Shown here piece by piece: positions 30,819 to 50,029 of a stretch of DNA of 61,594 bases. The translations under genes were made by a program, and so were the position numbers. Origin of the DNA: an uncultured Lachnospiraceae bacterium (GTDB lineage Bacteria > Bacillota > Clostridia > Lachnospirales > Lachnospiraceae); assembly GCA_949893755.1 (NCBI GenBank), contig CATLCV010000008.1, positions 1 to 61,594 on the forward strand. The letters run 5' to 3'. The notes below the pieces were generated by a model. It searched no databases and was not told the origin of the DNA. It saw only the letters and a list, made by a program, of their open reading frames with translations. The first letter of the stretch is position 1; each line of letters opens with the position of its first letter.

Positions 30819-30839
30819 ATTTTCTGTAAAAAGAATGAA

Positions 30840-30964
30840 TTCTTCGGGGTCGGGTGTAATTCCCAACCGGCGGTATAGTCCGCGACCCGCTTAGGCGGCT
30901 GAACTGGTGACTCTTATCAACAGAGAATTCCAGTACCGACAGTAAAGTCTGGATGAGAGAAGAA
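30840..30964 (+). ncRNA. FMN riboswitch (RFN element)
   Basis: The outer stem TTCTTC / GAAGAA encloses the conserved GGGGTCGGGTG, AACCGGCGGT, AGTCCGCGACCCGC and GGATGAGAGAAG blocks of the FMN aptamer. Ligand binding should favour the terminator hairpin that follows and switch off the riboflavin transporter. Confidence 0.96.
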
Positions 30965-30995
30965 ATTTATGCCATAAAAGTGTGGATAGAATCAG

Positions 30996-46094: not shown

Positions 46095-46656
46095 ATCTAA
46101 TAATACGGTATTGAATCAATCAATGTTATGGAATATTGATGCATACAAAATAAAAAGTGTAGTTACATACGTTATGAATGGTCTGTTGGAAAAAATAGAA
46201 AATCCTTTTTGGATGGAAAAAAGAATAGAAAATAATGTTTTTGGATATAATAGTAAAAAATATGAACAATTGGAAAAGTTATATTCAATGGCATATACTA
46301 GTCTAAATTCATTGGAAAAAAATTATATAGTAGCGAGTGCTGCATTGGACGAAATAGCAGAGTTAGATGATAATTGGAATAATAATGGTGCATGTTCTTT
46401 TTCTGCGAAGTTAATTGAAAAATGTAGAGGAATTCTGATGCAGTTAGTAGCTGAACCATTTATATGTCCTACAGCTTGCGGTTCTATTCAGTTTGAGTAT
46501 GAAAAAGAAAATGGAGAGTATCTTGAATTCGAAGTATATGAAGATAGAATCGAAGTTTTTTTAGATACGCTGTCCAATGGAGAACAAGAGTTTTGCTTAA
46601 AGGGGATTTCAGCAACTGATAAAATGAAACAAATGGTGGTAGATTTTTATGGTTGA
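46084..46656 (+). CDS. Unknown protein, second gene of the AT-rich module
   Basis: 190 residues. Contains ELDDNWNNNGACSFS and later PFICPTACGSIQFEYEKENG, a recurrent motif pair (DDNW..GA, then P..G.I..E) of an unnamed family often found in small accessory operons. It overlaps the genes before and after it (11 and 8 bases). No signal or membrane helix. AT-rich like the rest of the module. The function is not known; a regulatory or immunity role is only a guess. Confidence 0.6.
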   Translation: MYFKSNNTVLNQSMLWNIDAYKIKSVVTYVMNGLLEKIENPFWMEKRIENNVFGYNSKKYEQLEKLYSMAYTSLNSLEKNYIVASAALDEIAELDDNWNNNGACSFSAKLIEKCRGILMQLVAEPFICPTACGSIQFEYEKENGEYLEFEVYEDRIEVFLDTLSNGEQEFCLKGISATDKMKQMVVDFYG

Positions 46657-47062
46657 AAGGGATTGGAAACAAATATATCGTAGAGTAAAAAGTAAACCTA
46701 TTTTTATGAAAGATGGCAGACCATCATCAGCTTTATTTAAGGATAGCAAAGGGGTATCTGTTGATAGAGATGCTGGAAGAACAATTGACGATATCATATC
46801 TGATGAAGAGCGTTTACATTCATTGTATAATGCTGAATTAACAGATGAGGAGATAAAAGAAAAGGGAGAAGAATTAAAAGCGATAATTGGTTTGACAGAT
46901 GAACAGTGTGATTCAGTTGGAGTTTGTGTAATTCCGGATCCAATATATGGAGAAAATGAATATCATGCGTTGCTCCAAAAGTCAGAAACAGAGATTCAAT
47001 TATCAAAAAGTCAGGCTAAATCGTTAGCGAAGGTAGCAAGTGTGATAAAAAGCTATGCCTGA
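46649..47062 (+). CDS. Unknown protein, third gene of the AT-rich module
   Basis: 137 residues. Key segments are GRPSSALFKDSKGVSVDRD and VCVIPDPIYGENEYHALL, which recur in an unnamed family (PSS..FKDS.G.SVDRD, then P.P..NEYHA). The conserved Arg/Asp/His residues suggest an active site or a nucleic acid contact, but this is inference. It overlaps the second gene by eight bases. After its stop a short TACAGGTGGAAAT repeat (47185) and a terminator hairpin (47217-47240) follow. Confidence 0.6.
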   Translation: MVERDWKQIYRRVKSKPIFMKDGRPSSALFKDSKGVSVDRDAGRTIDDIISDEERLHSLYNAELTDEEIKEKGEELKAIIGLTDEQCDSVGVCVIPDPIYGENEYHALLQKSETEIQLSKSQAKSLAKVASVIKSYA

Positions 47063-47216
47063 ACTTATTTGTGAAAGAGTGGAAAAATTAGATTCTCTAC
47101 TCTATTTTTACATACTGCTGGTTGCGCTGATTGATGAAATCAGGCCGTCCGTGGCTTTCCTCTTATCCTCAAAACTGATACCGTACAGGTGGAAATAATT
47201 CCTAAGTACACATAGA

Positions 47217-47240
47217 AAGAAGCTCCGTCAGGAGCTTCTT
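47217..47240 (+). terminator. Terminator-like hairpin after the AT-rich module
   Basis: AAGAAGCTCC-GTCA-GGAGCTTCTT, a perfect 10-bp stem, followed only by CCG. The TATAGTTATCT start of the RNA element follows within three bases. Confidence 0.7.
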
Positions 47241-47243
47241 CCG

Positions 47244-47420
47244 TATAGTTATCTAAAAAGGAATGAGAGTAAAAGTGCGGAATCCGGGGTTACCGCCCCG
47301 GATGTCCAAAACTTTATGAGGGGGGAGATAGTTGTTTTTCAACTATCTGTCATTTAGTATAATAGAAAAATGTGTCCAAAGTGTTTTCATTTCATTAAAG
47401 AACTCGAAAAATTATAAACA
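47244..47420 (+). ncRNA. Structured RNA-like element, copy 1
   Basis: Starts TATAGTTATCTAAAAAGG, then an outer AAAGT/ACTTT pairing around a hairpin ATCCGGGG/CCCCGGAT. The conserved TTTATGAGGGGGGAG follows, then the hairpin AGATAGTTG-loop-CAACTATCT, and the shared TGTGTCCAAAGTGTTTTCA. Copy 2 (49711-49885) has the same parts, and its inner hairpin differs in sequence yet still pairs. It explains most of the 400-bp gap 47063-47462. No protein frame fits. Confidence 0.65.
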
Positions 47421-47462
47421 AATCAAAAAGGAAATCAAAAGACTTCATAGAGTCTCGTCTTT

Positions 47463-48734
47463 TCACTCTGCGGAATCTGCATATACGATCCGGCCATTGC
47501 ACAGGGTATATTTCACCTTTCCATATAATTTCCTGCCTGTAAACGGAGAATTGGAGGACATGGAATGATAGCTGTCCGGAATCCATGGCTCCTCCGGATC
47601 AAAAATTACTAGGTCCGCCGGGCTGTCCTGCTTTATGTTTCCATAAGGCAGGTGGTAGAGCCGGGCCGGATTTATGGTCATTTTTCCTAATAGCTGCATC
47701 AGTGTGAGATGGCCGGGTCGGACAAGCGACGTGATCCCAAGAGCAAGGGCTGTCTCCAGTCCGATGATGCCGCTGGGGGCATCCGGGAACGGCTTCGCTT
47801 TTTCCGCGGCGCTGTGGGGGGCATGATCCGTTGCAATGATGTCGATGGTGCCGTCGGACAGTCCCCGGATGATGGCCTGCCGGTCTTTTTCTGTGCGCAG
47901 AGGAGGGTTCATTTTTGCCAGAGTGCCATGGGTAAGTACAGCATCCTCCGTCAGGGTAAAATGATGCGGAGTCGCCTCAGCATGGAGCTTCGCGCCCATC
48001 GCCCGGAAGGACCGTACCAGCTCTACGGAATATCCGGAGCTGATATGCTGAATGACCACATGGGCACCGGAGCGCAGCGCCAGCATACAATCCCTTGCCA
48101 CAAGAGACTCCTCGGCAATGGACGGGGAACCATAGAGCCCCATCTGCCGGGAAATCTCCCCGTGATTGATCCCGTTATTCCGGATAAAGGCAGGATCCTC
48201 TTCATGAAGGCTGATGGGAACGCCAAGCTCTCCGGCCGCCTTCATGGCCTCATAGCAGAACGAGGCATTGGTGATGGGAATCCCGTCATCCGTAAAACCG
48301 CAGGCACCCGCTTCTTTTAGTGCCGGCATGTCTGTCATGACCTGGCCTTTCAGCCCCTGAGATACGGTTCCGGCCTGGAAGATCCGGATATCTTCCTGCT
48401 TTGCCCGTTCCAGGATATCCCGCAGTACGGGAACCGAATCCACCGCAGGGGACGTATTTGCCATGCAGATCACGGACGTGAATCCGCCCCTTGCCGCCGC
48501 AAGCGCGCCGGTGTGAAACGTCTCCTTGTGGGTAAAGCCGGGATCCCGGAAATGTGTATGGGTGTCGATCAGCCCCGGGGCAATGACGAAGCCTTCCGCG
48601 TCCAGGCATTCCTCCCCGGGGGAGGCAGTCAGGTCCGGGCCGATCCTGGCAATGATGCCGTCTCGGATGCGGAGATCAGCTTTGTACGATGCGTTGGTAT
48701 TTGGATCCATGATCAAGCCGTTTTTTAGTATCAT
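47463..48734 (-). CDS. pyrC: Dihydroorotase
   Basis: 423 residues, class I amidohydrolase. The metal motif is DTHTHFRDPG near residue 60, with further ligands in the EDPAFI, QHISSG and ATDHAPHS segments. It closes carbamoyl-aspartate to dihydroorotate in pyrimidine synthesis, in the cytoplasm. The start at 48734 follows GGAAAGGA; a longer frame to 48842 is not supported by homology. It stands alone on the minus strand between two copies of the RNA element, away from other pyr genes. Confidence 0.93.
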   Translation of the reverse strand: MILKNGLIMDPNTNASYKADLRIRDGIIARIGPDLTASPGEECLDAEGFVIAPGLIDTHTHFRDPGFTHKETFHTGALAAARGGFTSVICMANTSPAVDSVPVLRDILERAKQEDIRIFQAGTVSQGLKGQVMTDMPALKEAGACGFTDDGIPITNASFCYEAMKAAGELGVPISLHEEDPAFIRNNGINHGEISRQMGLYGSPSIAEESLVARDCMLALRSGAHVVIQHISSGYSVELVRSFRAMGAKLHAEATPHHFTLTEDAVLTHGTLAKMNPPLRTEKDRQAIIRGLSDGTIDIIATDHAPHSAAEKAKPFPDAPSGIIGLETALALGITSLVRPGHLTLMQLLGKMTINPARLYHLPYGNIKQDSPADLVIFDPEEPWIPDSYHSMSSNSPFTGRKLYGKVKYTLCNGRIVYADSAE

Positions 48735-48763
48735 AGTGTGGTTCCTTTCCGATTTTATAGAAT

Positions 48764-48788
48764 GTTTCCAACTGTACAGGTGGAAATG
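48764..48788. repeat. TTTCCA palindrome, pyrC leader copy
   Basis: TTTCCA-ACTGTACAGG-TGGAAA, nearly symmetrical. Related TACAGGTGGAAAT copies occur at about 47185 and 60099, and a mirror copy near 14427-14448. The remaining gap to 49030 is AT-rich with short dyads and no convincing gene. Confidence 0.5.
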
Positions 48789-49033
48789 TTTTGGGTTAGA
48801 AGTTGCAGCAAAAAATGATATAGACAAGTCAAGATGTGCCACATATTTTATTACAACTCTTTACGGTTTATGCAACCGTGCAATAAGACACGGTATTATG
48901 TAACCTATTTTTACATAACTTATGGAATTTGGCAATACAATTTACCGGCGGTTAGAATAAAAATCAAATTGTATTATTAAAAATCTAAATTTTCCAATAC
49001 AAAGTCGGAATCTTCAAAAGGCACAATCAGTTC

Positions 49034-49062
49034 TTGACATTCACCTCTGAATGTGGTATTTT
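49034..49062 (+). promoter_or_regulatory. Promoter with inverted repeat for the DUF3796/XRE pair
   Basis: TTGACA (49034-49039), 17-bp spacer, TATTTT (49057-49062). ACATTC-ACCTCT-GAATGT (49037-49054) sits across the spacer, a probable operator of the XRE-type regulator. Confidence 0.65.
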
Positions 49063-49109
49063 TATAACATAAAGAGTGAAATAAACCACATATAGAAGGA
49101 GGAATATGA

Positions 49110-49463
49110 ATGAAAAAGATCAATTATCTGGGATTTTTATCCCTGCTCTCCCTGATCTCCATATTGGGATGGAAGAGCGGCAACACAGGATTGTATGGAT
49201 TTTTTGGATTTATCTATTTTATCCGCTATTTTTGGGTGAGTCCGGATGAACTGTTTCTTTCGAATGTGCAGAAATCCGCAACCACTGCATTTATGCTGAG
49301 CATGGTCTCCCTTGTTCCGTTTATGTTTTCCTGCTCCGTATTCTACAATATCTCTGCCGCAATCCCTATGGCCTTTGCGCTGAGCTTTGTGGTATCGACC
49401 GTTGCATTTACATTCGTGCTGATGGGACTGGAGTTGAGAGAGCGAAGGGGAGCGGAGGAATGA
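49110..49463 (+). CDS. DUF3796-like small membrane protein
   Basis: 117 residues with about four hydrophobic helices ([66 protein letters not shown]). It pairs with a small XRE regulator by an ATGA overlap, a typical arrangement of this family in Clostridia. Molecular function unknown. RBS AGAAGGAGG. Confidence 0.78.
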
Positions 49464-49657
49464 TCAAAAACAGGATAAAGGAATACCGGGCCAGATATGA
49501 TATGAAGCAGGAAGACCTGGCAAAGCTGGTCGGTGTGCGGAGGGAAACGATCGGGAATCTGGAAAAAGGAAAATACAATCCTTCGCTGGTTCTGGCATGG
49601 AATATCGCAAAGGTATTTCATGTGACGATCGAGGAAGTTTTTACGGTAGAATCATAA
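49460..49657 (+). CDS. Small XRE-family (Cro/CI-like) regulator
   Basis: 65 residues that are almost entirely an HTH_3 domain: [20 protein letters not shown], then [17 protein letters not shown]. It overlaps the membrane protein stop by four bases. Likely represses its own operon through the dyad at 49037-49054. Homologues usually regulate the partner membrane protein gene. Confidence 0.92.
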
Positions 49658-49677
49658 AAATATAAAAAGACAAAGAA

Positions 49678-49703
49678 ATCCGCTAACCTCACGGTTAGCG
49701 GAT
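49678..49703 (+). terminator. Terminator after the XRE gene
   Basis: ATCCGCTAACC-TCAC-GGTTAGCGGAT, an 11-bp perfect stem, followed by CTCTTGTTAT. RNA element copy 2 begins within eight bases. Confidence 0.85.
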
Positions 49704-49710
49704 CTCTTGT

Positions 49711-49885
49711 TATAGTTATCTAAAAAGGAATGAGAGTAAAGTGTGACATCCAGGAATCTCTCCCCGGATGTCTTAACTTTATGAGGGGGGAGATAGTTGT
49801 TTTATCAACTATCTGATATTTAGTATAAAAGAAAAATGTGTCCAAAGTGTTTTCAATTTATAAAAGAAGTAGAAAAATTATAAAG
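49711..49885 (+). ncRNA. Structured RNA-like element, copy 2
   Basis: Parts match copy 1: TATAGTTATCTAAAAAGG, GAGAGTAAAGT, an inner hairpin GACATCC / GGATGTC that differs in bases but pairs, TTTATGAGGGGGGAG, hairpin GATAGTTG / CAACTATC, and TGTGTCCAAAGTGTTTTCA. The 5' AGTTATC could also pair with GATAGTT of the last hairpin, so two folds are possible. It fills half of the 372-bp gap 49658-50029. Confidence 0.65.
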
Positions 49886-50029
49886 AAAAAGTTTAGAATG
49901 TAGAAAACTGTCATAATTTGCGGCAAAAGTATGATAAGATAGACGTATTCAGAATAGGAAGTCACAGTTTTGATTAAAGTAAATGGATAGATAAAAACGG
50001 CGGATTGGCAGGAAGCGGGGAAGCATAGT

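Follow-up and report, generated by a model that had tools for sequence, protein, structure and literature searches.

The small RNAs (sRNAs) closest to those considered here are the csRNAs of Streptococcus, which belong to the CiaRH regulon, and LhrC1-5 of Listeria, which are controlled by the two-component system LisRK. The csRNAs are described as multicopy, mutually similar and under response-regulator control, with a hairpin, an unpaired anti-Shine-Dalgarno (SD)/anti-AUG region containing CAU, and a terminator hairpin; the unpaired anti-initiation segments act on ribosome-binding regions (PMC3091779). Their promoters carry direct repeats of 11-bp period near the -10 element, with a CiaR box (NTTAAG-N5-TTTAAG) ten nt before it, and the RNAs share a conserved nonamer, [A/C]UCCUAAA[A/C] (PMC3091779). 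A second article describes LhrC as multicopy, with conserved sequence upstream of the promoter and with CU-rich segments bearing a UCCC motif that act on ribosome-binding regions, and also names RsaE/FsrA-type C-rich sRNAs of low-GC Gram-positive bacteria (PMC4132741). Here, two copies of an element of similar kind are reported from a 61,594-nt stretch of DNA (the window) of an uncultured Lachnospiraceae bacterium (assembly GCA_949893755.1, contig CATLCV010000008.1, positions 1 to 61,594, forward strand). Each copy is read, with a probability of roughly 70%, as an independent minus-strand gene for a trans-acting regulatory sRNA of ~140-150 nt that is likely under VanR-like control and may pair with its targets through its linkers.

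The new RNA resembles the csRNAs in its multicopy, mutually similar genes, in the 11-bp repeats near the -10, in the succession of hairpin, unpaired CAU-containing region and terminator hairpin and, we infer, in control by a response regulator. However, it comes from another bacterial family, and its -10-proximal operator reads CAYAnTTTnnACAYATTT, not TTTAAG-N5-TTTAAG. The repeats standing before the -10, where a CiaR box would be expected, are of CAYAnTTT types; a TTAA-type pair lies further upstream than these, and exact TTAAG-N6-TTAAG occurs in 13/70 copies, far upstream by consensus. The core of the csRNA nonamer, UCCUAAA (TCCTAAA in DNA), is present in 0/65 copies, and the long form of the new RNA has an extra covarying hairpin and a second linker. 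With LhrC it shares multicopy genes, unpaired segments containing C-rich/UCCC motifs, sequence conservation upstream of the promoter and probable two-component control, but sequence and layout differ, and the new RNA has no Rfam match whereas LhrC is presumably in Rfam. RsaE/FsrA-type sRNAs are alike in having C-rich single-stranded seeds, which are thought to hit SD sequences; we take these sRNAs to be in Rfam, single-copy and under other regulators, and the Rfam search gave no sequence relation to them. Like multicopy CU-rich sRNAs in general, the new RNA has several near-identical copies, each with its own promoter and terminator, and the sequences appear to represent an undescribed family of this known, response-regulator-controlled kind.

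Two probable small RNA genes on the minus strand

The two elements (47244-47420 and 49711-49885) are 87-88% identical over ~175 nt, and no other copy was found in the window's 5.9 Mb draft genome, where the next BLASTN matches are 20-mers with E of 0.16 or worse. Their block order, the pairing of AAAGT with ACTTT, the hairpin formed by GATAGTTG and CAACTATC and an inner hairpin that differs between copies 1 and 2 yet pairs in both, all described in the original prediction, were recovered. That prediction also placed the RNA on the plus strand, which had to be reversed: promoter, terminator, an excess of G-U pairs and a short variant all place the transcript on the minus strand. Read in this direction, each gene comprises an operator of 11-bp repeats, TATACT, an invariant 5' hairpin, a C-rich linker (linker 1), a middle hairpin, a CU-rich linker 2 and a terminator (Table 1). 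Sequence comparison establishes the gene boundaries, the covarying three-hairpin fold, the strand, the multicopy family and the linkage to a regulator pair.

Table 1. Features of the two putative sRNA genes and their immediate context, in window positions.
Feature	Positions	Strand	Remarks
Small RNA gene, copy 1	47207..47348	-	~134 nt plus tail; putative start ~47348; -10/AGATAG spacing, terminator, fold z -6.93
-10 hexamer TATACT, copy 1	47356..47361	-	
Operator/upstream block, copy 1	47362..47436	-	11-bp-spaced repeats
5' hairpin, copy 1	47326..47348	-	AGATAGTTG-AAAAA-CAACTATCT
Linker 1, copy 1	47316..47325	-	unpaired CCCCCCTCAT
Covarying middle hairpin, copy 1	47272..47315	-	
Linker 2, copy 1	47244..47271	-	TACTCTCATTCCTTTTTAGATAACTATA
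Terminator hairpin, copy 1	47215..47242	-	convergent ORF 46649-47062 reads towards hairpin
Small RNA gene, copy 2	49665..49814	-	~142 nt plus tail; putative start ~49814; fold z -8.18
-10 hexamer TATACT, copy 2	49822..49827	-	
Operator/upstream block, copy 2	49828..49902	-	
5' hairpin, copy 2	49791..49814	-	
Linker 1, copy 2	49782..49790	-	CCCCCCTCA
Covarying middle hairpin, copy 2	49737..49781	-	
Linker 2, copy 2	49709..49736	-	CTCTCATTCCTTTTTAGATAACTATAAC
Terminator hairpin, copy 2	49673..49708	-	convergent ORF 49460-49657 reads towards hairpin
Dihydroorotase-like ORF	47463..48842	-	presumably pyrC; directly upstream of copy 1; context only

From 71 collected copies one duplicate was removed, and the 70 distinct copies were aligned. 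In 65/70 the best -10 match is exact TATACT, and the spacing from the -10 hexamer to AGATAG is 12-13 nt in 69/70. The upstream block of ~60-70 bp is strictly spaced and aligns without gaps (TTaAg...tTtctTaAtAattTTTCt.tTTCTTTTAta.att.aaCAtAcTTTgGaCAcATTTt.c.tt-TATACT), and the promoters are without a good -35 hexamer. The top autocorrelation lag is 11 bp both in the long-form promoters (n=70) and in those of variants and partial relatives (n=21); direct repeats of this period are what OmpR/PhoB-type response regulators usually bind.

At its 3' end the RNA has a G+C-rich hairpin followed by U-rich sequence, and the "terminator hairpin" that the original prediction saw 3-8 bases before each copy is this same terminator, viewed from the other strand. 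As the terminator directly follows the RNA, a cis-regulated downstream gene is unlikely. In many copies there is also an A run on the other side of the hairpin, and in 44/63 cases a mechanically called open reading frame (ORF) of 100 aa or more runs convergently towards it, so the terminator may work bidirectionally. The strand is further indicated by the middle hairpin, which on the minus strand contains 36 G-U pairs against 15 A-C oppositions (p 0.005; 65 distinct hairpins, symmetric scoring, pairs treated as independent). A tract, GGGGGGAG, was earlier suspected of mimicking a ribosome site; it lies on the strand opposite to the transcript as the complement of the C-rich linker, and the RNA therefore carries CUCCCCCC.

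Many BLAST matches cover the promoter, 5' hairpin and C-rich linker alone. When 21 promoters in the loci of such partial matches were read, four led into long forms and 17 into a shorter RNA of one linker plus terminator (~74-97 nt; 16 measured). Linker 1 is exactly CTCCCCCCTCAT in 14/17 of these short variants, and in 16/17 it is immediately followed by a simple hairpin, which mostly has a T run, the remaining one having a more complex hairpin. Since the short variants keep promoter, 5' hairpin and linker, the shared part starts at the operator and runs along the minus strand.

Structure and covariation

RNA folding of both window copies gave three hairpins with two mostly unpaired linkers between them. 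Each strand folded better than all 200 dinucleotide shuffles, with z -6.9/-8.2 on the minus and -5.8/-5.6 on the plus strand (copies 1/2). Covariation was scored on an alignment (A2) of 65 of the 70 copies; L030, L056, L037 and L027:1022 were omitted for a contig edge, misassigned or odd terminator, and L059:7299 because it nearly duplicates copy 2. In an initial covariance model (R1) a MAFFT misalignment had hidden the middle stem, and this model was replaced by a structure set by hand. Under this structure 91.4% of cells are paired, against 35-45% when partners are slid by 1-3 columns. Double-sided changes occur in 25/40 pairs, giving 276 such cells against 78 ± 10 after shuffling and 51-108 in the slid-partner controls. 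These figures are somewhat favoured by the structure having been set from rows of the tested alignment itself. The conserved structured RNA with a compensated inner hairpin that was predicted from two copies is upheld, with covarying pairs across the 65 aligned copies.

The variation is unevenly spread. Double-sided changes affect 11/11 pairs of the middle stem and 13/14 of the terminator, and the middle regions fold into a hairpin in 69/70 copies despite differing length and sequence (one row was lost to a text match); four of them have a predicted fold without the outer AAAGT stem. In the 5' hairpin, 7/8 inner pairs never vary and the first eight letters are identical in 65/65, so the sequence itself must be under constraint. 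Linker 1 is exactly CTCCCCCCTCAT in 51/65 copies and linker 2 contains exact ACTCTCATTCCTTT in 64/65.

A riboswitch-like or attenuator RNA on the plus strand, in which the 5' AGTTATC competes for the last hairpin, was also considered, and a switching leader was rejected. The plus strand does fold well and some plus-strand ORFs lie downstream, but any palindromic stem must fold on both strands, and the operator, -10 and terminator are all on the minus strand, which the G-U asymmetry and the short variant also favour. Furthermore, the mechanically called neighbour beyond the promoter is on the RNA's own strand, opposite to a plus transcript, in 48/65 cases. Of the two segments that would compete, the 3' one (AACTAT, in linker 2) occurs in just 44/65 copies while its partner at the start of the 5' hairpin is invariant, which means that the alternative pairing is not kept. 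Moreover, the RNA is directly followed by its own terminator. The switch is therefore considered extremely improbable, and the minus-strand sRNA gene is retained as the reading of each copy.

Distribution and novelty

BLASTN with copy 2 (E <= 0.001) found matches in 119/397 genomes of the family (30%), 55 of which carry two or more, in some cases 240-250 bp apart; there are one to four copies per genome, some in tandem, with inspection covering the matches that were fetched. The strict pattern TATAMT-N5-9-GATAGT-N5-20-ACTATC-N-CCCCC was present in 62/397 family genomes (reversed control 0) and, in the class, in 1/291, the window's own. A second covariance model (R2), run in the order with stricter filters, matched 11/295 genomes, of which ten (own included) belong to the family and the eleventh is weak (E 6e-4); in the class it matched 4/291, the own genome plus three weak ones (E 1e-4 to 6e-4). 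At none of the four weak non-family loci (L089, L093-L095) was an operator together with -10 and GATAG seen at the threshold used, and the class and order searches confirmed no copy beyond the family. An exact 25-mer occurs in 24 public contig stretches labelled Lachnospiraceae, Mediterraneibacter, Faecalicatena, Schaedlerella, Coprococcus or just Eubacteriales, including loci of the culturable species Schaedlerella arabinosiphila and Faecalicatena faecalis, and an exact 23-mer in one stretch of a viral-contig collection.

The original prediction could match the element to no known riboswitch class. In Rfam 15, no family reached its gathering threshold for the window elements or for 14 loci that included short variants, and six permissive matches on a search of the window (E 0.47-9) were all below the gathering scores of their families; a known RNA family was rejected on this ground. 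The literature searches made gave no paper describing the RNA; a human-microbiome survey of 3161 candidate RNAs could include it among its supplementary listings (PMC8040213).

Several copies per genome, some tandem, and phage-type integrases that adjoin two copies (a borderline one adjoins a third) might suggest a non-autonomous mobile repeat, similar to a miniature inverted-repeat transposable element, which carries a promoter and hairpins along. Such a repeat is hard to reconcile with the low copy number of one to four per genome, the strictly kept anatomy from promoter to terminator and the lack of a long inverted repeat between the element ends (best 10/14 letters in the outer 40 nt). In two genomes followed up, the RNA gene is instead the target site, with a copy of its 3' end at the element's far end. 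We give this explanation hardly any credence.

A candidate two-component regulator

Two copies adjoin a gene for an OmpR-type response regulator, and the pair of this VanR-like regulator and a large histidine kinase is the likely regulator of the RNA genes, as judged from gene linkage and a shared operator box. Among 25 genomes searched, the orthologue is present in 22/22 that carry the RNA; its identity is 78-100% over nearly the whole length in 21 and 80% over part of the gene in one. It lies <=2.5 kb from a copy in 10/22 genomes and <=20 kb in 12/22, and in 8/20 <=2.5 kb once the two genomes that suggested the regulator are set aside. Control paralogous regulators were <=2.5 kb away in 1/40 and <=20 kb in 5/40 cases; these are 40 of the first 43 paralogue rows, the three omitted being on contigs where no copy is known. 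The best-matching models for the regulator are those of VanR, with scores below their cut-offs. The kinases are 820-923 aa long (six genomes), and in the two tested the VanS match was confined to the catalytic part, with no Pfam domain in the long N-terminal region. In one genome (G104) the order is kinase and regulator, a divergent GH25-LysM lysozyme-like gene, two RNA genes on the lysozyme strand and a convergent hydrolase; this order recurs in G322, where a single RNA gene and a different convergent gene are found. The window's genome retains the lysozyme-regulator-kinase group on a different contig (L190), and its RNAs lie around the pyrC-like ORF, as in L059, L066 and L070.

A matrix for the distal box of the operator, built from 70 RNA operators, scored 24.1 on the regulator promoter of the own genome against an sRNA mean of 23.7 (0/1200 two-letter-block shuffles), and the box was found at p < 0.05 in 18/24 regulator promoters. 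The operator-plus-minus-10 pattern occurred at 47 places in 20 RNA-carrying genomes against 0 for the reversed pattern; 40/47 are this RNA, which is to be expected since the pattern was built on its promoters. In the own genome it matched the two RNA promoters and one place with three mismatches, taken for chance (reversed control 1). With a pattern that derives from RNA promoters, 0/47 matches in these 20 genomes lay directly before a protein gene, the seven non-family ones having been viewed 150-175 nt downstream.

These seven matches precede other short, non-coding-looking transcripts (L151, L153, L145, L155, L144 and L148/L158, in G085, G057, G104, G390, G118 and G323). This second kind of RNA has a closing hairpin and, in 5/6 distinct loci, TTTTTCATAA; three loci show a 5' GTTC..GAAC hairpin. 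In L151 and L153 the terminator loop contains CACCTCCC or CACACCTCCC, complementary to the ribosome site GGGAGGTG of the regulator gene itself. Shared control is uncertain because the upstream sequence differs from that of the main family.

Several observations weigh against the reading of the elements as sRNA genes under VanR-like control. The long-form terminators have short U runs (3-5 T within the next 9 nt in 56/70), the G-U excess of the terminator hairpin is weak (69 vs 51, p 0.12), and the copy, linkage and G-U counts are not independent because the genomes are related. Three of the 25 genomes have no detected RNA, two of which have a regulator of 80% (G261) and 69% (G207) identity, and regulator and RNAs are on different contigs in the window's genome. 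Of the 24 regulator promoters, six lack the distal box, for which one of six paralogue promoters gives a score of 11.0, and the proximal box is not convincing (p < 0.04 at two promoters and 0.048 at another). A second OmpR-type regulator of ~48% identity lies 1.8-18 kb from a copy in five of the 40 control cases (G232, G145, G323, G035, G085).

These last points, namely the nearby paralogue, the unconvincing proximal box and the regulator in genomes without detected RNA, would fit control by a different regulator, either this paralogue or one of phosphate type, with the VanR-like linkage reflecting an inherited neighbourhood. However, the VanR-like orthologue is linked more tightly (10/22 <=2.5 kb) and shares the distal box. 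We take the operator to resemble that of PhoB. A phosphate regulon was rejected: no PstS-type phosphate-binding protein (PF12849) was found in the 90% complete own genome (G000), whereas one is present in 13/14 control genomes, and the operator pattern there is limited to the RNA promoters plus the one chance place. A different regulator is accordingly regarded as rather unlikely, and the VanR-like pair is kept as the candidate. A wider possibility, put forward tentatively and with less than even confidence, is that sRNAs are the main output of this two-component system, in which the VanR-like regulator and very large kinase would drive several two-seed RNAs and perhaps a second, unrelated class, with the RNA genes also serving as landing sites for integrative elements.

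Possible mode of action

In the proposed mechanism, a signal sensed by the large membrane kinase would lead the VanR-like regulator to bind the 11-bp repeats, and the bound regulator would activate the RNA genes, as well as the gene that encodes it, at promoters without a good -35 hexamer. The unpaired linkers, CUCCCCCCUCAU and ACUCUCAUUCCUUU, might then block translation of target mRNAs by pairing with their G-rich ribosome-binding regions, several near-identical copies could raise the RNA dose, and the middle hairpin and terminator might merely hold and end the RNA; these later steps are put more tentatively than the first two. The two linkers are probably the best candidates for target pairing.

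The search for targets also counts against this proposal. At 432 predicted translation starts, linker 1 had a mean of -10.54 against -10.66 ± 0.75 for shuffled linkers, and linker 2 had -10.47 against -10.01 ± 1.1; the search thus gave no enrichment over shuffled linkers of the same letters. The test is a weak one, as the starts were guessed by a rule demanding an SD-like motif and were drawn from many genomes. Since the linkers pair no better than shuffles, the target mechanism would rest on analogy with csRNAs and LhrC, and the invariance of the 5' hairpin leaves room for a protein partner.

An RNA acting mainly by protein binding, as a sponge or cofactor with the 5' hairpin and linkers as the protein site, would account for the lack of a pairing advantage and for the eight identical letters and seven invariant inner pairs of the 5' hairpin, which exceed the needs of pairing. 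Nevertheless, the RNA has two distinct CU-rich linkers, unpaired and with CAU, which are similar to the anti-initiation regions of csRNAs (PMC3091779) and to the UCCC motif of LhrC (PMC4132741). Protein binding as the principal activity is thus considered improbable, and target pairing through the linkers is tentatively preferred.

Genomic neighbourhood

Integrative elements were observed in the 3' half of the RNA gene in two genomes, at L204 (G138:C1:1365984-1371826) and L205 (G308:C1:42864-50332). In both, the integrase adjoins the RNA 3' end, and a second CTCATTCCTTTAGATAACT plus terminator lies 5.8 kb (G138) or 7.4 kb (G308) away; tRNA genes serve likewise as integration sites. The G138 element also carries a rolling-circle replication initiator. 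In the viral-contig stretch (L075), an integrase-like gene is located 152 nt from the RNA on its promoter side (27.0 bits, just below the Pfam cut-off).

A similar-looking dihydroorotase-like ORF adjoins a copy in L059, L066 and L070. Elsewhere, a protein of 114-132 aa with a Spo0A C-terminal domain is encoded directly upstream on the RNA's strand; the domain was tested at L050 (1696-2046), and look-alike proteins occupy the same position in L025, L028, L036, L037, L039, L045, L047 and L048. The window also contains a flavin mononucleotide (FMN) riboswitch at 30836-30968 on the plus strand (101.7 bits).

Implications

To our knowledge, regulatory RNAs have been little studied in Lachnospiraceae, a major family of gut bacteria, and the RNA family described here has matches in 30% of its sampled genomes. 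It would offer another case for comparison with csRNA and LhrC, and an example of RNA genes as integration sites. Its candidate regulator, defined operator and pair of conserved seed segments should make expression, regulation and targets directly testable in culturable species.

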